64,000 nucleotides of DNA, taken from the NCBI RefSeq assembly GCF_030930995.1, contig NZ_CP133217.1, positions 3,524,001 to 3,588,000 on the forward strand. The letters run 5' to 3'. The position numbers and the translations under genes were made by a program. Below are positions 4,226-38,968 of the stretch, one piece after another (position 1 is the first letter of the stretch; each line of letters begins with the position of its first letter). The notes beneath the pieces are model-generated. The model ran no database searches. It had not been told where the DNA came from and saw only the letters and a program-made list of their open reading frames with translations. Source of the DNA: Thiothrix subterranea (GTDB lineage Bacteria > Pseudomonadota > Gammaproteobacteria > Thiotrichales > Thiotrichaceae).

Positions 4226-6637
4226 ATGAAAACAATAAAGCAAAGTGTTGCGTTGGCAATTCTCGTGGCCTGCACCCCTGCCAGCAGCTTGGTGTTTGCA
4301 GCCGATAAGCAACTGCAAAATATCACGGCACAAGCAACAGGCAATAAAACCGAAGTTCAATTGCAATTCAGCTCCCCTGTGCAATTGCCCCAAGGTTTTC
4401 TCATGGAAAATCCTTCACGGCTAGTCTTTGATTTTCCTGCGACCGACGTTGCCCCCAATACCCGCAGCAAAGCGGTTAACTTGGGAAATGTGCAAACCAT
4501 TGATGCCGCCAATAACCAAGGCAAAGCACGGGTGGTGGTACACCTGAATGGCTTGGTCAACCACACGCTAGAATCCCGTGGCAACACCGTTGTCATGTTA
4601 TTCGACAATAACGGCAAACAACAAACAACGCCCAACGTCCAGCGCAGCGGCAAAGCCAGCGCCGATAATTTTGCCCCCGCACCCAAACCGTCCACCGTGG
4701 AGACGCAAAATCTTGCGTCTCTACCCCCAACCGTGACGCCAGCCAGCCAAACGTTGCCATTGCCGGAATTGCCCGTTCCCGCCGCGCTGCCGAAAGATTA
4801 CGCCTGGTATACGCCACCGGATGCTGTCGCTCCGCCAGCACCCGTGGTTATGCCTGCCCCCGTGGTCATGCCCCCCCCTAAAGCTGTAATCGCTCCTCCG
4901 ATGGCAGCAAAACCCGCACCGTTGGCAAGCGTCGCTACCCCAGCACCAATGCCAGTAGCCGCACCAGCCAACACTGTGTCGCAATTACAAAGCGTGGATT
5001 TCCGGCGTGAACCTGACGGTAGCGGGCGGATGATAATTAATTTACCTTCCGCTGACACCAATGTTAGCGATAGCAAAAGCGGTAACACCATTACCGTTAC
5101 CTTGGCGGACGTTGACGTGCCTGCGAATTTGCAAAAACGCATGGATGTGATGGACTTCGGCACGCCCGTGAGCAGCATCGACGTGGCGCAACGGAATGAC
5201 GGGGCGCGAATTCGCCTTTCCAGCCACGAAGGGTTTGAATACCGCACCAATCGCAACGGCAATGAATACACCGTTTACATCGACAAACTCAACGTATCGG
5301 CTGAAGAAAAACTCGCGAGTGAACAGAAAAAGAAAACCTTTACCGGCGAAAAACTCTCGCTCAATTTCCAAGACATTGAAGTGCGGGCGGTATTGCAATT
5401 GCTGGCTGACTTCACCGACAAAAATATCGTGGTCAGTGACACCGTAGCGGGCAATATTACCGTGCGCCTCAAAGATGTGCCGTGGGATCAAGCGCTCGAC
5501 ATCGTGCTCGAATCAAAAAATCTGGCCATGCGCGAAAACGGCAACGTCATCTGGGTCGCGCCTGCCGCCGAATTGACCGCGAAGGAACAGCAAGAGCTGC
5601 AATCCATCAAAGCCAAGCAAGAATTAGAACCGTTGGTGACAGAATACATTGCCATTAATTTCGCCAAAGCCAGCGAACTGTCGGCGTTGATTGAAAAATC
5701 CAAAGGCGAAGACAAACAATCCCTGCTTTCGCCGCGCGGCAAAGTATCGGTAGACGAACGCACCAATACCCTGTTGGTGCAAGACACGGCAACACAAGTC
5801 AAAGCCATCCGCGATCTCGTCAAAGCACTGGACGTGCCGGTCGAACAAGTGTTGATTGAATCGCGCATCGTCATTGCCAACGACACCTTCGGCAAAGAAC
5901 TCGGTGCACGCTTTGGCATTACACCAAACTGGATCAATCAAGACAGCATTGGCATTGGTACTGGGCATCTTGGCTCCGGCACTGACGATTACTGGGAAAG
6001 TGCCACCAAAGCACTGGCTGACCCAACGGGTAAAAGCACGGTCACTATTCCCGGTCTCAGTGACCGCCTCAGCGTCAACTTACCGGTTACTGGCGCGATT
6101 GGCAGCTACGGCTTCTCCATTTTGAGTAAGGACTTCTTGGTCGATCTCGAACTGTCTGCCTCACAAGCCGAAAGCAAGAGCGAGACCATTTCCAGCCCAC
6201 GGGTGATTACCTCCAACCAAACCAAAGCGTTGATTGAGCAAGGGGTGGAAATTCCTTACCTGCAAGCCTCTTCCAGCGGTGCGGCGAACGTGGCCTTCAA
6301 AAAAGCGGTGCTCAGTCTTGAAGTCACGCCACAAATCACCCCGGACGAACACATTTCCATGGATTTGAAAGTGAATCAGGACACCGTGGGGCAAATCTTC
6401 TCCGGCGTCCCTAGCATCAACACCCGTGAAGTGCAAACCAAAGTGCTGGTAGAAAACGGGCAAACGGTAGTGCTCGGTGGCGTGCATGAGGAAGAAAACC
6501 TGAGCGGCACGACCAAAGTTCCGGTGTTAGGCGATGTGCCGGTGTTAGGCCGACTGTTCCGCACCGACAACAACAGCAACAAGAATCGTGAGCTACTGAT
6601 TTTTGTTACCCCGAAAATTGTGGACAGTAAACGCTAA
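4226..6637 (+). CDS. pilQ: Type IV pilus secretin PilQ
   Basis: Outer-membrane secretin that forms the gated channel for the pilus fibre. Visible parts in order are a signal peptide (about 1-25), a first AMIN peptidoglycan-binding domain (about 30-125) and a long Pro/Ala linker (about 145-245). A second AMIN domain (about 252-350), an STN/N0 domain (about 375-440), an N1/KH domain (about 465-545) and the C-terminal secretin barrel follow. The secretin signature VPVLGDVPVLGRLF and the ending ELLIFVTPKIV are clear. At 803 residues it is long for PilQ because of the linker. The linker contains a small palindromic element (4697-4724) read in frame. AGGA at 4211 is the likely ribosome site. Confidence 0.95.
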   Translation: MKTIKQSVALAILVACTPASSLVFAADKQLQNITAQATGNKTEVQLQFSSPVQLPQGFLMENPSRLVFDFPATDVAPNTRSKAVNLGNVQTIDAANNQGKARVVVHLNGLVNHTLESRGNTVVMLFDNNGKQQTTPNVQRSGKASADNFAPAPKPSTVETQNLASLPPTVTPASQTLPLPELPVPAALPKDYAWYTPPDAVAPPAPVVMPAPVVMPPPKAVIAPPMAAKPAPLASVATPAPMPVAAPANTVSQLQSVDFRREPDGSGRMIINLPSADTNVSDSKSGNTITVTLADVDVPANLQKRMDVMDFGTPVSSIDVAQRNDGARIRLSSHEGFEYRTNRNGNEYTVYIDKLNVSAEEKLASEQKKKTFTGEKLSLNFQDIEVRAVLQLLADFTDKNIVVSDTVAGNITVRLKDVPWDQALDIVLESKNLAMRENGNVIWVAPAAELTAKEQQELQSIKAKQELEPLVTEYIAINFAKASELSALIEKSKGEDKQSLLSPRGKVSVDERTNTLLVQDTATQVKAIRDLVKALDVPVEQVLIESRIVIANDTFGKELGARFGITPNWINQDSIGIGTGHLGSGTDDYWESATKALADPTGKSTVTIPGLSDRLSVNLPVTGAIGSYGFSILSKDFLVDLELSASQAESKSETISSPRVITSNQTKALIEQGVEIPYLQASSSGAANVAFKKAVLSLEVTPQITPDEHISMDLKVNQDTVGQIFSGVPSINTREVQTKVLVENGQTVVLGGVHEEENLSGTTKVPVLGDVPVLGRLFRTDNNSNKNRELLIFVTPKIVDSKR
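4697..4724. repeat. Short palindromic element inside the pilQ coding region
   Basis: A near-perfect inverted repeat with arms GTGGAGACGCAA and TTGCGTCTCTAC (one G-T mismatch) and a 4-base loop AATC. It is read in frame in the PilQ proline-rich linker, encoding roughly residues 157-166 (VETQNLASL). The composition resembles small dispersed palindromic repeats of the GTAGAGACGC type that I recall from other bacterial genomes, especially cyanobacteria. That relation is from memory only. Confidence 0.55.
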
Positions 6638-6689
6638 AGCAGTCCACAAGCTGCTTGATTCCCGCGCCCAGTGCTGGCATAAATCCCCC

Positions 6690-7226
6690 ATGCAAAACAG
6701 TATCATTCTGGTGGGATTGATGGGCGCGGGAAAATCCACCATAGGCCGACAACTTGCGCGACGACTGAACCTAACCTTCTACGATTCCGACAGGGTGATC
6801 GAAGAGCGCACGGGTGTCAGCATCCCCACCATCTTTGAGCTTGAAGGAGAAGCTGGCTTTCGCGAGCGCGAAGAACAAGTCATCGCCGAACTCACCGCCC
6901 TTCCCGACATATTACTCGCCACCGGCGGCGGCAGTGTTTTGCGCGAAACCAACCGCCAACATCTCAAAACTGGAGGGTGTGTGATCTACTTACGGGCTTC
7001 CGCCGACCAACTGTTTCAGCGCATCAAACACGACCGCAGCCGCCCCTTGATGCAAACCGAAAACCCGTTGCAAACCTTACGCAACCTGCTAAAAACCCGC
7101 GAGCCGTATTATCTGGAAGTCGCTGATTTAGTCGTGCCAACGGGCAAACAAAAAGTGAACGTTATCCTGCGCGAAATCCACAACAAACTCAAACAATTAC
7201 AGGAAGTTACCCATGCAAACCCTTAA
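6690..7226 (+). CDS. aroK: Shikimate kinase
   Basis: Phosphorylates shikimate to shikimate 3-phosphate with ATP in the aromatic amino acid pathway. The P-loop GLMGAGKST is at residues 8-16. The shikimate-binding [11 protein letters not shown], the GGG motif in [11 protein letters not shown] and the lid HDRSRPLM are all present. I use ATG 6690 because it gives the normal length of 178 residues beginning [12 protein letters not shown]. The frame is open further upstream but that extension overlaps the pilQ end. The 3' end overlaps aroB by 14 bases. The pilQ-aroK-aroB order is conserved in many gammaproteobacteria. Confidence 0.94.
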
Positions 7227-8289: not shown

Positions 8290-9606
8290 TTATTTTCCCA
8301 ATTTCATCAATTTACCGCCCTGCTTATACGCCAACGCTTCCAAGATAATGCCGTTGGTGTTGGCGGTAAGCGCTTTATTCGGCTGACCACTGACTTCATA
8401 CACGCCGGAATACCAACCGCGTTCTGGGTCAGCCAAAGTCGCGGCTTTCTTCACCAGCTTTTGGGTGTAGTCGGTTTCATACAGTACGTGCCAACCGAAT
8501 GCCGCTTTGGTACTCAACGTTTTAAACTGGCTGGCATCTTCGCCCTTCTCCGTGATAGCGTTCCAGATTTTGCCATCGGTAAACACAGTGTTGTAAACGA
8601 AGTACGGCGGCTGGTCGATGTTGTCTTCGGATACAGCGGTGAGAATGCCCGTTTCAGCAAAACGCTTTTCCTGCGCCTTATACACGCGCCACGCCAATTC
8701 TTGCGACAGATGATCCCAACCGAATTCCACACCATCCAGAATGTACGGTTCACTCACCACGTAGTTGTGCGCCCCGTATTGCTGCGCACTGCGGCTATCG
8801 GTCGCTACCTGAATACCACCAATGTCCACAAACTTGAGGAAATCGGTGTAACGCAGTGAATTGGAGACATCTAGCCCCATCAAATTGAAGGATTTGGCAG
8901 CATATTCTTCATAGCCCAAACGCCCTTCCTGTAGGTATTCGGTTTTACCATCATCATTAACCGCCGCGCCATACAATACGCCCTGTACCAACATCGGCGC
9001 GGTATCCCACGTTTCCAGCACCCGCTTAACCGATGCAGTGTGTTGCGGGTAATGCCAAGTCAGCACGTTAAACGGCACGAGTACACGCCCGATGTCGATT
9101 GCCGACCAACCAATCCCTTGTTCTGACGGCTGATTGTTGTAATCCACCATTTGCAAGGAAATGGTGTTGTAGGATTTATTCGGCAACTTGCCTTCAAACA
9201 GCGGCATTTTCGTCAAAGAATCCAAGGCTTTGAAAATACGCGCATCGAATTCGGTTTGATCAATAATCCCTAAGCGTTGCGCCGCAATCACCGCCATCAA
9301 ATACGACGAAGTATCCCACAACGTGGAGGCGTTATACTTATCAACCGAATTCACCAGCCCCGTTTCAGGAATGGTATTGTTCTGGAAATATTTCCACGCC
9401 GTTTTTGCCCACGCCAATTCCTGCGCGGTTAAGGCACGCGTCGGCGCAATATTCACCTCCGTGCTGATTTCGATCATTGCCTCCGGGGTATTCGCATTGC
9501 CCACACTAAGCCCTTCCAACCAGCCCACCAAACCAAACGCGGTGACTAACCCTGTCAAAAAAATCAAATGGCTACGTGCACGCACCAAGCCCTGTTTAAA
9601 ACTCAT
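8290..9606 (-). CDS. DUF3131-domain protein 1 (secreted or anchored, predicted alpha-toroid)
   Basis: A 438-residue protein with an N-terminal hydrophobic segment (about residues 14-32) followed by a DUF3131 domain, a helical toroid related in shape to glucoamylase-like enzymes. Conserved stretches shared with two other proteins in this window are ETGLVNSVDKY, ASTLWDTSSYL, EGRLGYEEYAAKSF, AHNYVVSEPYILD, GILTAVSEDNIDQPPYFVYNT and ANTNGII near the C-terminus. No reaction is established for the family. Its position as the last gene of an operon with a GT2 synthase and a GH2 glycosidase suggests polysaccharide processing. Its ATG overlaps the synthase stop by four bases. Confidence 0.8.
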   Translation of the reverse strand: MSFKQGLVRARSHLIFLTGLVTAFGLVGWLEGLSVGNANTPEAMIEISTEVNIAPTRALTAQELAWAKTAWKYFQNNTIPETGLVNSVDKYNASTLWDTSSYLMAVIAAQRLGIIDQTEFDARIFKALDSLTKMPLFEGKLPNKSYNTISLQMVDYNNQPSEQGIGWSAIDIGRVLVPFNVLTWHYPQHTASVKRVLETWDTAPMLVQGVLYGAAVNDDGKTEYLQEGRLGYEEYAAKSFNLMGLDVSNSLRYTDFLKFVDIGGIQVATDSRSAQQYGAHNYVVSEPYILDGVEFGWDHLSQELAWRVYKAQEKRFAETGILTAVSEDNIDQPPYFVYNTVFTDGKIWNAITEKGEDASQFKTLSTKAAFGWHVLYETDYTQKLVKKAATLADPERGWYSGVYEVSGQPNKALTANTNGIILEALAYKQGGKLMKLGK

Positions 9607-11471
9607 ACTGTCACCTCGTTATTATTATACTGTTGGGGTTGAGCTACTTCCTCAACAACCTCGTCTGGCTCCGGCTGCCAAAACGCCGCCATCACAATCC
9701 CACTCAACGCCAAAATATTATTCAGCCCCCAAAACAGGTTGGTCAAAATCCCACCCAGCGAATAATCGTCATTACCCAACGCAAAAAACTGCACGCTGGC
9801 ATACGTAATCCCCAACACCGTCAACACAATCACCGCAAATTGCGGCAGCACCAGATGGAAAAAATTACCTTCTTGCCGATCTTTCGGTGTCACCGGAAAC
9901 TTAATCTGTTCACCCTTCAACACCGTCCAAATCGCCTGAAGATTCACCGGGAAAAACGACAAATAACTAGCCTTGGAACGGTAGCCCGCAATCCCCCACG
10001 TCCCCACCATAAACGCCAATTCCATCGCAATCAGGAACGGCAAAATGTGCAGGAAAAAATCCCCGGTATACGCGCTCACCGGCGCAATCCCGCTAAACAA
10101 ATAAATCAACGGCGCTGCCAAAAACAGCATATTCCAGATACCGCCAAGGTATGACCATGCTGTTGCGCCGTACATCAAGCGTTGCGCCCAACTCATGCCT
10201 TTGCGCGTCATCGGATTGTCGTGCATGACAATATCCAACGTGCCACCTGCATATTTGAAGCGTTGCACCGTCCAACTCAACAAGTCTTGCGGCGACAACA
10301 TTTTCGATTCAACTGCCGGATGCAGCACCGATTTCCAATGCCGATCTTCATCCGAATGCAGCACAATCGAGGTGTAAATATCTTCGGAAACGTGAAAACG
10401 GTACGGGGTAAATTCTTCTTCTCCCGCCACCTGATGGCGCATTTCCTGCACCAAATCGCTGTCGAGTGCTTCCCCGCCCATCAGCTTTTGCAATTGTTTG
10501 GACTGCTTGCCGACCTGCTTTTCGATGGTATCGGAATAGGTTTTGAGCGCCGCTTCCATCACCGCTTCACGCCGATGAATCGAGCCTGCCCCGCAACAAA
10601 ACGACGCATTCGCCCAGTTACGACGGCGTTGGATAATGTCGTAGAACATTTTTGGCTCATTTACGAACGGGTCTTCGCCGACGCGCATTTCACCGATCAC
10701 CGCTTCCACGCCTTTGCCCAACCAACGACCGGGGGTTTTCAGGTATTTACCCAACACATCGGGCAAACGTTTGCCTTCCGGTAAATCAAAAAACCATTGC
10801 GGGGTTTGCACCCACGCCACATCCGGGTCACGAAAATAGCCGAGCGTGTGTTCCAAAATCGTCGGGAATGGGCGCGTATCGGCATCGCAAATCACGATAA
10901 AATCACCGTGGGTTTGCTCCATTGCATTGCGCAAATTGCCAGCTTTGAACCCGATATTGCTGGTGCGGGTAATGTAACCCACACCCTCTTCTTCCGCCAC
11001 TTGGCGCATTTCCGCACGTTTACCATCATCCAGCACGAAAATTTTCAGCTCAATCGAATGCGGATACGTCACCTTTTTCGCATCACGGATACTCAAACGC
11101 ACCAGCTCCACGTCTTCGTTGTAGCTGGGGAAAAATACATCCACTTTCAACGGGCGTTCTTCACCATGATCGGGGCGCACCACTTCGCTCAATTTTTCAG
11201 GCGGCGGCAACTGTTCGTAATCCTGCACTTTCCACAAGTTGAACACGAACAACCCCAGCCCAAAATAGGAGGCGGTTTCAGCAAATGCCAGCGGAATCGC
11301 ATACCACAGCGCATCCGGGTTAAGCGATTCCGTCCACCGCCACCACAAATACCACGCCCCCAAGGTCAGGGCGATGACAGCGAGAAATTGCCAAATGCTT
11401 TCCGTTACCGCTGAATATTCCAACGGCGGTTCGGGTTTGCGGTCTTCAAACTTGTCGAAATAGAATCCCAT
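9603..11471 (-). CDS. Membrane glycosyltransferase family 2, cellulose-synthase-like
   Basis: Processive-type polysaccharide synthase of the inner membrane, 622 residues. Two N-terminal transmembrane helices (about residues 27-85) precede the GT-A domain. That domain has VDVFFPSYNED, the UDP-binding VLDDGKR, the DAD motif ICDADTRPF, the SED acid in HVSEDIYTS and the acceptor-gating motif QRFKYAGG, a variant of QxxRW. Four to six further transmembrane helices follow. There is no PilZ domain, so direct c-di-GMP control is not apparent. The polymer is unknown. The gene is coupled to the following DUF3131 gene and starts 12 bases after the GH2 gene. Confidence 0.85.
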   Translation of the reverse strand: MGFYFDKFEDRKPEPPLEYSAVTESIWQFLAVIALTLGAWYLWWRWTESLNPDALWYAIPLAFAETASYFGLGLFVFNLWKVQDYEQLPPPEKLSEVVRPDHGEERPLKVDVFFPSYNEDVELVRLSIRDAKKVTYPHSIELKIFVLDDGKRAEMRQVAEEEGVGYITRTSNIGFKAGNLRNAMEQTHGDFIVICDADTRPFPTILEHTLGYFRDPDVAWVQTPQWFFDLPEGKRLPDVLGKYLKTPGRWLGKGVEAVIGEMRVGEDPFVNEPKMFYDIIQRRRNWANASFCCGAGSIHRREAVMEAALKTYSDTIEKQVGKQSKQLQKLMGGEALDSDLVQEMRHQVAGEEEFTPYRFHVSEDIYTSIVLHSDEDRHWKSVLHPAVESKMLSPQDLLSWTVQRFKYAGGTLDIVMHDNPMTRKGMSWAQRLMYGATAWSYLGGIWNMLFLAAPLIYLFSGIAPVSAYTGDFFLHILPFLIAMELAFMVGTWGIAGYRSKASYLSFFPVNLQAIWTVLKGEQIKFPVTPKDRQEGNFFHLVLPQFAVIVLTVLGITYASVQFFALGNDDYSLGGILTNLFWGLNNILALSGIVMAAFWQPEPDEVVEEVAQPQQYNNNEVTV

Positions 11472-36727: not shown

Positions 36728-38866
36728 TTAGTCAGTCACAACACGGATAAAATGATGAGTATCATCAGCGCCACGGCATACCACGATATTGCAATAATGG
36801 AACAGGATGCCACCACCTTGCTCGATATTGCCAACATCACCGCCCACCGCGACAAAGCCCGCCCTTGGCACACCGCAATGACTTGAACCGAGTTTGTCAT
36901 ACGTCGCGGGTTGCAAACTGATGGATTCGTAGTCATCGAGCGTAGAACAGTCATAGTGGCTATCGCTGCCCCATAAGCGGCTAACCGCACGCGGATTGCG
37001 CCCACGGTAAGCGGCTTTGGTTTGCTTTACCAGCAACGAAAGCCAATCAGAGGAAGTGTCGAGAGCAACTTTGGCGGTTAACCCTGCTCCCGCAGCAAGA
37101 ACAGCCACTTTCGCAGCATTCAGAAAATCACTACCCGTACCATCCGCTCCGACATCTGGCGTTTGCAGCGATACATTCGGCAAATCAACATCAATCTCTG
37201 GAAGGCTCATGTCCATATCTGGCGGATTCAGAATCGGCTTGTGTGGATCAATGCCGCTCCAATCCATGCGCGGCGCTTTCACATCAACCGTTGGCAAGTC
37301 AATATCAAATGACGGCACATCCAAGGAAACATCCGGCAAATCAACGTCCGGTACTTTCAGCGATACATCCGGCAAATCAACGTCTGATACTTTCAGCGAT
37401 ACATCCGGCAAATCAACTTCCGGTACTTTCAGCGACATATCCGGCAAATCAACACCGACCTCTGGAAGGTTCATGTCCATATCTGGCGGATTCAGAATCG
37501 GCTTGTGTGGGTCAATGCCGCTCCAATCCATACTCGGCACTTTGACATCAACCGTTGGCAAGTCAATATCAAACGACGGCACATCCAAGGACACATCCGG
37601 CAAATCAACTTCCGGTACTTTCAGCGATACATCCGGCAAATCAACGTCCGGTACTTTCAGCGACATATTCGGCAAATCAACGTCCTGTACTTTCAACAAC
37701 ATATCCGGCAAATCAACACCGACCTCTGGAAGGTTCATGTCCATATCTGGCGGATTCAGAATCGGCTTGTGTGGATCAATGCCGCTCCAATCCATACTCG
37801 GCACTTTGACATCAACCGTTGGCAAGTCAATATCAAACGACGGCACATCCAAGGACACATCAGGCAAATCAACGTCCGGCACATCCAAGGACACATCAGG
37901 CAAATCAACGTCCGGTACTTTCAACAACATATCCGGCAAATCAACACCGACCTCTGGAAGGCTCATGTCCATATCTGGCGGATTCAGAATCGGCTTGTGT
38001 GGATCAATGCCGCTCCAATACATGCGCGGCGCTTTCACATCAATCGTTGGCAAGTCAATATCAAACGACGGCACATCCAAGGACACCTCCGGCAAATCAA
38101 CTTCCGGTACTTTCAACAATACATCCGGCAAATCAACTTCCGGCATTTTCAGCGACATATCCGGCAAATCAACGTCTGGTACTTTCAGCGATACATCCGG
38201 CAAATCAACGTCCGGTACTTTCAGTGATACATTCGGCAAATCAACATCAATCTCTGGAAGGCTCATGTCCATATCTGGCGGATTCAGAATCGGCTTGTGT
38301 GGATCAATGCCGCTCCAATCCATGCGCGGCGCTCTCACATCAACCGTTGGCAAGTCAATATCAAATGACGGCACATCCAAGGAAACATCCGGCAAATCAA
38401 CGTCCGGTACTTTCAACGATACATCCGGCAAATCAACTTCCGGTACTTTCAGCGACATATTCGGCAAATCAACTTCTGGTACTTTCAGCGACATATCCGG
38501 CAGGTCAACATCAATCTCTGGAAGGCTAATATCCATATCTGGCGGATTCAGAATCGGCTTGTGTGGATCAATGCCGCTCCAATCCATGCGCGGCGCTTTT
38601 GGCATTTTCCATGACACATCAGGTACATCCACATTAGTATCTAACTTAGAACGAGCGGCGGCTACAGCACCCACGGCGGCGGCAGTACCACCCAACACTG
38701 TCGCCACCACCGGCACATTCACCCGTGCAGGAACATCTTCATAAAGTGGGATCGCCGCATTCTCAGCAGGACGGCAGAACAATGATTTCAGAAAACGGCC
38801 AATACCGTACCCCAGCAAAAAAGCAACCAGCAGCCAGAGCAATGCCTGTAACAAAAACATTGTCAT
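36728..38866 (-). CDS. Membrane-anchored protein of nested 12-residue repeats (AHNAK/periaxin-like pattern)
   Basis: A 712-residue protein, no family recognised. An N-terminal membrane helix (about 4-28) is followed by a short linker and then about 500 residues built from the 12-residue unit VDLPDVSLKVPD and close variants. Six longer blocks begin with DWSGIDPHKPILNPPDMD. A conserved non-repetitive C-terminal domain (about 575-712) contains four Cys and the stretch GRNPRAVSRLWG. Alternating hydrophobic and Asp/Pro positions suggest an extended or beta-solenoid-like rod. The nearest look-alikes I know are eukaryotic AHNAK and periaxin repeats, a resemblance of pattern only. It follows a microprotein and a BON-OmpA gene in one operon. 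Confidence 0.85.
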   Translation of the reverse strand: MTMFLLQALLWLLVAFLLGYGIGRFLKSLFCRPAENAAIPLYEDVPARVNVPVVATVLGGTAAAVGAVAAARSKLDTNVDVPDVSWKMPKAPRMDWSGIDPHKPILNPPDMDISLPEIDVDLPDMSLKVPEVDLPNMSLKVPEVDLPDVSLKVPDVDLPDVSLDVPSFDIDLPTVDVRAPRMDWSGIDPHKPILNPPDMDMSLPEIDVDLPNVSLKVPDVDLPDVSLKVPDVDLPDMSLKMPEVDLPDVLLKVPEVDLPEVSLDVPSFDIDLPTIDVKAPRMYWSGIDPHKPILNPPDMDMSLPEVGVDLPDMLLKVPDVDLPDVSLDVPDVDLPDVSLDVPSFDIDLPTVDVKVPSMDWSGIDPHKPILNPPDMDMNLPEVGVDLPDMLLKVQDVDLPNMSLKVPDVDLPDVSLKVPEVDLPDVSLDVPSFDIDLPTVDVKVPSMDWSGIDPHKPILNPPDMDMNLPEVGVDLPDMSLKVPEVDLPDVSLKVSDVDLPDVSLKVPDVDLPDVSLDVPSFDIDLPTVDVKAPRMDWSGIDPHKPILNPPDMDMSLPEIDVDLPNVSLQTPDVGADGTGSDFLNAAKVAVLAAGAGLTAKVALDTSSDWLSLLVKQTKAAYRGRNPRAVSRLWGSDSHYDCSTLDDYESISLQPATYDKLGSSHCGVPRAGFVAVGGDVGNIEQGGGILFHYCNIVVCRGADDTHHFIRVVTD
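37150..38610. repeat. Nested tandem repeat: 36-bp units inside 228/264/300-bp super-repeats
   Basis: The string GGCGGATTCAGAATCGGCTT occurs at 37221, 37485, 37749, 37977, 38277 and 38541. Spacings are 264, 264, 228, 300 and 264 bp, so each block differs from 264 bp by exactly one 36-bp unit. The 36-bp unit contains ACATCCGGCAAATCAACGTC and variants and encodes 12 residues. This is an in-frame array that grows and shrinks by whole units. Confidence 0.95.
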
Positions 38867-38869
38867 GAT

Positions 38870-38968
38870 TTAATCCTCTTTCCCTGAGCGTGAAAACCAA
38901 CCCATTACCAGACCGAAAACAAACGTCAGTAAGAGCCACATGAATAATTCTGAAAATAAATACATCAT
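38870..38968 (-). CDS. 32-residue single-pass membrane microprotein
   Basis: A short frame starting at ATG 38968 with a strong AAGGAG site and ending in TAA at 38870-38872. The product starts MMYLFSELFMWLLLTFVFGL, has one hydrophobic helix (about residues 5-24) and ends with the charged tail SRSGKED. It fits exactly between the BON-OmpA gene (11-base gap) and the repeat-protein gene (3-base gap). It is therefore almost certainly translated. It resembles the N-terminal anchor of the repeat protein in size and position, so it may be a helix partner of that anchor. Confidence 0.75.
   Translation of the reverse strand: MMYLFSELFMWLLLTFVFGLVMGWFSRSGKED

Follow-up and report, generated by a model that had tools for sequence, protein, structure and literature searches.

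What is a long, repetitive, membrane-anchored protein encoded beside an OmpA-family gene for, and on which side of the membrane does its repeat region lie? We addressed this question for a gene of Thiothrix subterranea, a filamentous sulfur bacterium, within a window, the whole stretch of 64,000 nucleotides that was analysed. The initial annotation of this DNA read the protein as an anchored rod of adjustable length next to a peptidoglycan-binding OmpA protein. We propose, with a probability of about one half, that the locus instead encodes a three-gene trans-envelope tether, linked to the cell wall and carrying a cytoplasmic, multivalent docking array. Beyond that annotation we found a gene for a 32-aa micropeptide, a conserved operon, a DPHKP motif restricted to two types of tether gene, and a paralogous operon (Table 1).

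Table 1. Location of the features discussed in the text, in window coordinates unless a contig is named
Feature	Position	Strand	Basis
Gene 1, membrane-anchored OmpA-family protein with BON domain, 295 aa	38980..39867	minus	Pfam
Gene 2, 32-aa single-helix membrane micropeptide MMYLFSELFMWLLLTFVFGLVMGWFSRSGKED with GxxxG	38870..38968	minus	BLAST, profiles, alignment
Gene 3, tether protein, 712 aa	36728..38866	minus	ORF
Tether N-terminal membrane helix, residues 2-30, then K/R and Cys31	38777..38863	minus	AlphaFold2, charge bias, insertion scale
Repeat array, six super-repeats, each an anchor block plus 12-residue VDLPDVSLKVPD-type units	37142..38599	minus
IDPHKPI copy 1 (protein order)	38552..38572	minus
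IDPHKPI copy 2	38288..38308	minus
IDPHKPI copy 3	37988..38008	minus
IDPHKPI copy 4	37760..37780	minus
IDPHKPI copy 5	37496..37516	minus
IDPHKPI copy 6	37232..37252	minus
Peptide with DPHKP motif, IDPHKPILNPPD
C-terminal tip, residues 608-712, short basic helix and all-beta domain (YDKLGSSHCGVPRAGFVAVGGDV...)	36731..37045	minus	AlphaFold2, conservation
Paralogous operon, own genome, G000:C2	about 2554870-2558177 (L198 4871-8178)

The operon and its repeat protein

The first gene matches the Pfam families OmpA (PF00691, E 7e-22, 78 bits against a cut-off of 27.2) and BON (E 2e-7), which bears out the OmpA neighbour of the initial annotation. A CCC motif precedes its single membrane helix, and its sequence contains GHTD and NLSxxRA, which we take to have a role in peptidoglycan binding. 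The micropeptide ATG is preceded by GAAGGAG, and 3 bases separate its stop from the tether ATG. Micropeptide relatives found by BLAST are 50-100 % identical.

The gene order is conserved, with the OmpA/BON protein first, the 32-aa micropeptide second and the tether third. An OmpA gene lies upstream of the micropeptide at all 31 loci read (30 from the family and one from G426, a genome of another family), at a distance of 7-26 bp at 26 loci and 74-251 bp at five. Downstream, a tether-type anchor is found at 30 of the 31 with an offset of -3 to 13 bp, L146 being the exception; the sequences from which the profiles for both counts were made overlap with the test set. This adjacency count supersedes a cruder neighbour test, which gave 26 and 26 of 31. 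Outside the 31 loci, one further locus (L063, G046:C23) has the micropeptide with both neighbours. Profile searches placed the micropeptide, as a short ORF of at most 90 aa with E < 1e-10, in 31 of 63 family genomes, including 10 of 16 in the genus, and also in G426.

At G056 (L042 about 5054-7107 and 9112-10649), the OmpA and tether genes are both interrupted, by eye, with inserts containing transposase-like ORFs, and the operon appears decayed. Together with the absence of the micropeptide from 6 of the 16 genus genomes, this suggests that the unit is dispensable and can be lost. Elsewhere, an OmpA partner of 1108 aa has seven BON stretches (L049 4462-7788).

The micropeptide aligns in register with the tether anchor, the GxxxG of both coinciding (hhalign 95.9 %, E 6e-9, without a control comparison of unrelated membrane helices). 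G19 and G23 are present in 33 and 33 of 34 micropeptides and in 33 and 30 of 34 tethers. A caution to this likeness is that membrane helices resemble one another by composition. In our own reading, the helix of the 32 same-family OmpA partners is directly preceded by one to three Cys, in many cases CCC, leaving aside six partners of other families and one fragment, and all 34 tethers have a Cys just after theirs. If both are cytoplasmic, a shared metal site, lipidation or a disulphide is possible.

The super-repeats of the tether are 88, 100, 76, 88 and 88 aa long in protein order, and the sixth is cut short where it passes into the C-terminal part. On the plus strand, the starts of the anchor block (the first six copies of its repeat family) are spaced 264, 264, 228, 300 and 264 bp, exactly as first noted, and the super-repeats differ in length by single 36-bp, or 12-residue, units. 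A seventh copy in the family is a 77 % match elsewhere, outside the six. The claim that six super-repeats share an identical starting block needs qualifying: five of the six have exactly DWSGIDPHKPILNPPDMD, the third reads YWSG... and the sixth super-repeat is the truncated one. Tandem Repeats Finder reports a 264-bp array of 5.4 copies (score 1766). Twenty 12-residue units match VDLP[DNE][VM][SL]L[KD][VM][PSQ][DES], and a slightly wider pattern gives 4, 5, 3, 4, 4 and 1 units per super-repeat.

The alternation of hydrophobic residues described earlier for this unit is well above chance, with 112 hydrophobic-x-hydrophobic occurrences compared to 51.9 +/- 6.1 in 1000 shuffles (maximum 75). Within residues 75-600, Asp makes up 19 % and Pro 16 %, and the net charge is -79. 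An open frame of 575 aa runs antisense to the repeats (37017-38744, plus strand) and mirrors their codons; it is probably not a gene. The initial annotation named no characterised bacterial protein like the tether, and nothing in Pfam or NCBIfam matched it above the curated score. Matches to DUF748 (E 0.005, 15.3 bits against a curated 50) and FtsX (E 0.047) were dismissed as sub-threshold or compositional. Apolipoprotein B-100 (E 6e-4), the sole match among sequences of solved structures at E up to 1, was likewise read as compositional.

The DPHKP motif and the variable linker

We searched the 16 genomes of the genus for a coding pattern of (I/V)(D/N)PHKPI and found 75 matches in 12 of them, while the reversed-pattern control gave 0 in all 16. 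By coordinates, every match falls within a window-type tether or a paralogous tether and no other gene of the 16 genomes has it. The motif-less genomes (G048, G050, G057 and G062) are also without the micropeptide, and the tethers of all ten micropeptide-bearing genus genomes, whole or partial, contain (I/V)(D/N)PHKP. The five paralogues that we examined all carry it too, provided that L may replace the last P; the six tethers examined from another genus lack it.

The paralogous operon in the same genome encodes, in order, an OmpA protein, a 43-aa membrane peptide, a 207-aa membrane-HHH protein and a 422-aa membrane-repeat-HHH tether with three IDPHKPI motifs. It is similar to the window operon in having OmpA first, a short membrane peptide second and a membrane-anchored IDPHKPI tether last, and differs from it by one extra gene and by an HHH tip where the window tether has a beta domain. 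A query of the paralogous tether type had matches in each of the 16 genus genomes. Outside the window-type tether, five of these genomes (G048, G054, G057, G058 and G062) match it solely through the membrane segment of a roughly 200-aa ORF.

Copies within the window are a poor guide to selection. The codon differences between copies, as raw pairwise sums, are 128 nonsynonymous versus 31 synonymous for the anchor blocks and 820 versus 416 for the 12-mers, and the six motif copies are one base apart; taken alone, the window thus reflects recent copying and not selection. Between genes the motif codons vary, and the three copies in the paralogue of the same genome are each written with a different DNA word. 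As read from these codons, selection on the motif is visible only between genes.

Length was compared using one genome per species. In the nearest relative found (G060), the last 112 residues are 99 % identical to the window tether and the protein is 560 aa long, with four motifs spaced 100, 100 and 88 aa. Judged from sequence, the ends are fixed between the two tethers and the length is altered by whole repeats, which agrees with the adjustable length proposed initially. Seven genus tethers counted range from 470 to 838 aa with 3 to 9 motifs. Tether relatives keep the membrane helix M..F..Q.LLWLL.AFLLGY.IGR.LK.LFC and a long acidic middle, and in Thiothrix and near genera they also keep the tip. 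Linkers longer than 150 aa, a set including fragments and broken, partial or interrupted genes, are net acidic in 31 of 31 cases (charge -6 to -180, the longest 1257 aa); six shorter ones have a net charge of -12 to +12. By eye, the linker sequence varies by genus, with VDLP- or VDLPK-type units in Thiothrix and Thiolinea-type genomes and Glu/Asp/Thr-rich low complexity in other genera. The linker at L058 4927-6987 has a long VTD tripeptide run, a very different low-complexity solution in the same place.

One explanation for such a linker is that it is a passive acidic spacer: the repeats would set a distance and hold the tip off the membrane, their sequence being irrelevant and changing by copying and slippage. 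This is the main rival to a docking array, and we consider it unlikely, though a serious candidate. The acidity shared by all the longer linkers despite sequences that differ between genera is what a spacer predicts, the repeat-copy differences within the window are mostly nonsynonymous, and operons occur in which the ORF downstream of the micropeptide has only 63, 100 or 107 aa (L144, L138 and L154). A spacer does not account for a motif found in the tethers of all ten micropeptide-bearing genomes and in all five paralogues with synonymous codons differing between genes, or for a coding pattern found in no other gene of 16 genomes. On sequence grounds, this restriction and conservation of the motif is the strongest sign that the repeats may do more than fill space, as the docking reading supposes.

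The tip and the side of the membrane

AlphaFold2 models the tip alone with confidence (pLDDT 93.4, pTM 0.86, alignment of 19 rows) as a helix, which contains K/R, followed by nine strands; the C-terminal domain expected by the initial annotation is thus a confident all-beta prediction. The full-length tether reaches a pLDDT of 37.8 from an alignment of 7 rows, with helix 2-30 as its best part. The stiffness implied by the word rod did not appear, as residues 29-190 and 192-606 stay below 50 with scattered short strands, which from so few rows is no proof of disorder.

The same domain was found conserved in relatives in other genomes, among them short stand-alone proteins such as those of L075-L078 (65-88 aa). 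The stand-alone proteins begin MSES... or MSDS..., and by eye, with no predictor, no signal peptide is evident. Close relatives of the tether conserve Cys residues in the tip. Neither the tip alone nor three short stand-alone relatives had a match above cut-off in Pfam or NCBIfam. A sequence profile of the tip against solved structures gave a best E of 0.056. Foldseek on the PDB returned 0 matches at E 1e-3 (best E 0.34), VIA-align against solved structures a best Z of 3.8 (rmsd 4.6, 83 aligned) and viral models a best E of 0.17, values that are compatible with a known fold.

The whole protein matched in 31 of 63 same-family genomes (E 1e-3 or better) and the tip profile in 26 of them. A scan of named-species genomes gave 13 loci, from Thiothrix, Thiolinea, Cocleimonas and MAGs, one of these labelled Chromatiales. 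At the level of the class, the tip matched in 18 of 369 genomes, including its own and one of its family. The loci L099-L114 have an ORF with a tip match in 15 of 16 cases. One of these ORFs has 448 aa; the other 14 are short, with 64-127 aa, and 13 of the short ones fall within 64-99 aa. When the tether anchor was used to search the phylum, 2 of 398 genomes matched at E 1e-4 in addition to its own. By eye, a gene resembling FimV/HubP follows a short way downstream of the stand-alone tip gene at L098 1507-1710 and of that at L166 about 10435-10638; we dropped this linkage, as no FimV-like gene was seen near the stand-alone tips of L164, L165 and L167.

Related tethers end in HHH domains, which match the HHH tails of NuoE, L21 and S2 models below the curated cut-offs. 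In two genomes of other classes (L199 and L200), genes for OmpA, a 42-46-aa membrane peptide and a protein with membrane, linker and HHH parts stand in a row. The window tether itself gave no HHH_5 or DUF4332 match at E up to 1. Searched across the phylum, the HHH profile matches 64 of 299 genomes and is unspecific for tethers; these matches are left out of our counts. The tethers at L057 9625-11847 and L062 2600-4756 end in Arg-rich tails, with no beta or HHH tip found.

These tips raise the idea of a nucleoid tether, in which the tip would fasten the chromosome to the wall by binding DNA, the beta domain and basic helix replacing HHH domains or Arg-rich tails. The HHH tips of relatives, the Arg-rich tails and the K/R-containing helix before the beta domain would all fit. 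We regard it as improbable: HHH domains of this type are also fused, going by model names, to ribosomal and NuoE proteins, so they do not imply DNA, and we saw no sign of DNA binding by the beta domain.

The docking reading requires the repeats to be cytoplasmic. An N-terminal helix was found, consistent with the membrane anchoring proposed for the rod. Around this helix, the mean number of K+R is 0.00 in the 6 residues before and 4.32 in the 20 after, and in each of the 34 tethers the K/R following the helix outnumber those preceding it; this bias predicts the N-terminus outside and the C-terminus inside. On a membrane-insertion scale, the first segment alone passes the threshold (<0.5) in all 25 proteins and the best second segment scores 2.0 or worse. 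Charge leaves the orientation of the other two proteins undecided: micropeptides average 1.71 K+R and 1.71 D+E after the helix, and in 27 of 34 the K/R following the helix are the more numerous, and the window OmpA protein has 1 K/R before its helix and 2 after. Because of the tether charge bias, the short tip relatives without an evident signal peptide and the HHH tips of related tethers, the repeat region very probably lies on the cytoplasmic side.

The same evidence bears on the placement given by the initial annotation, a periplasmic rod of adjustable length that is anchored in the inner membrane and stands beside the wall, which we now consider improbable too. In its favor, the OmpA/BON neighbour should be periplasmic, the conserved Cys residues of the tip could form disulphides and an Ala/Gly-rich stretch (residues 51-71), above 1.6 on the Kyte-Doolittle scale, could be a second helix, which would make the repeats periplasmic. 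That stretch fails the insertion scale, no second segment passes it in any of the 25 proteins, the charge bias holds in all 34 tethers, tip relatives look cytosolic and related tethers have HHH tips. Ala/Gly-rich segments (e.g. LLDxAKxAVVAAGAGLAAKA) recur within tethers, at residues 51-71 and 579-590 of the window tether and in L038, L040 and L057; possibly they are short membrane-touching helices.

Least probable, to our mind, is an array whose His/Asp motifs bind metal or each other and cluster tethers into submembrane patches or condensates, a reading that fits one His per motif, a multivalent array and an acidic chain and is countered by the six motif-less tethers of the other genus.

A candidate scaffold from wall to cytoplasm

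In the trans-envelope tether that we favor, the OmpA/BON protein would sit in the inner membrane by its one helix and grip peptidoglycan. The micropeptide and the tether helix, apparently related, may pack with it in the membrane, and the acidic Pro/Asp-rich chain of the tether would extend into the cytoplasm. At the end of this chain the small beta domain would bind a cytoplasmic partner. The (I/V)DPHKPI array may dock copies of a second partner, common to the paralogous tether. As 36-bp units or entire super-repeats are gained and lost, reach and valency would then change and both ends stay constant. Which partners these are is a guess, as is the suggestion, by analogy, that the system organises something at the envelope as HubP/FimV do.

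Passages of PMC12918733 describe HubP/FimV/TspA as having a periplasmic peptidoglycan-binding LysM, one membrane region, long acidic cytoplasmic repeats and a C-terminal client-binding TPR tip, and report that repeat number and length vary between close species. The window tether shares with them, in silico, a membrane helix and a long acidic repeat region that is predicted to be cytoplasmic and varies between close species. It differs in that the parts are split over three genes, with OmpA/BON in place of LysM, a membrane micropeptide, a helix at the very N-terminus and different repeats. No LysM was found in the tether or its OmpA neighbour (E up to 1) and no FimV/TPR domain in the tether, whose tip is modelled as all-beta. 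The window system is therefore not a HubP/FimV member, though it may work like one.

Two other comparisons are more partial. AHNAK and periaxin are eukaryotic proteins with a PDZ domain, and they may resemble the window tether in having short units in which hydrophobic residues alternate with Asp and Pro. No PDZ match was found in the window tether with Pfam, and we found no description of bacterial AHNAK-like repeats in the open-licence literature. The stand-alone beta-domain proteins of Gammaproteobacteria, mostly 64-99 aa, are homologous to the window tip and, unlike the tether, are without membrane helix or linker. We found no description of the operon or motif in the open-licence literature, where the term 'dphkp' appears only in mathematical-model papers. 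The available parts of PMC10580974 report Kelch-like tandem repeats in a Thiothrix protein, with 0 occurrences of OmpA, and those of PMC8570282 have 0 occurrences of OmpA and of tandem repeat.

Taken further, and as a tentative suggestion that may well not hold, the OmpA/micropeptide/tether triad found across Thiotrichaceae could represent an undescribed class of wall-to-cytoplasm scaffold. A genus-specific short linear motif would have been multiplied in it, and docking valency would evolve in steps of whole repeats, as it does in scaffold proteins of eukaryotes. Triads with HHH tips are found in one genome from a different gammaproteobacterial family and in two from other classes.

To our knowledge, few bacterial scaffolds joining the cell wall to the interior are known, HubP/FimV being the best described, and this operon looks like an independent, split-part answer to the same task. 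One of its parts is a 32-residue membrane peptide, a size that gene finders can miss. A motif that twelve genomes encode in two types of tether gene and nowhere else would offer a direct handle on the partner. The genus itself provides a natural series of tether lengths and motif counts for asking how reach and valency matter.
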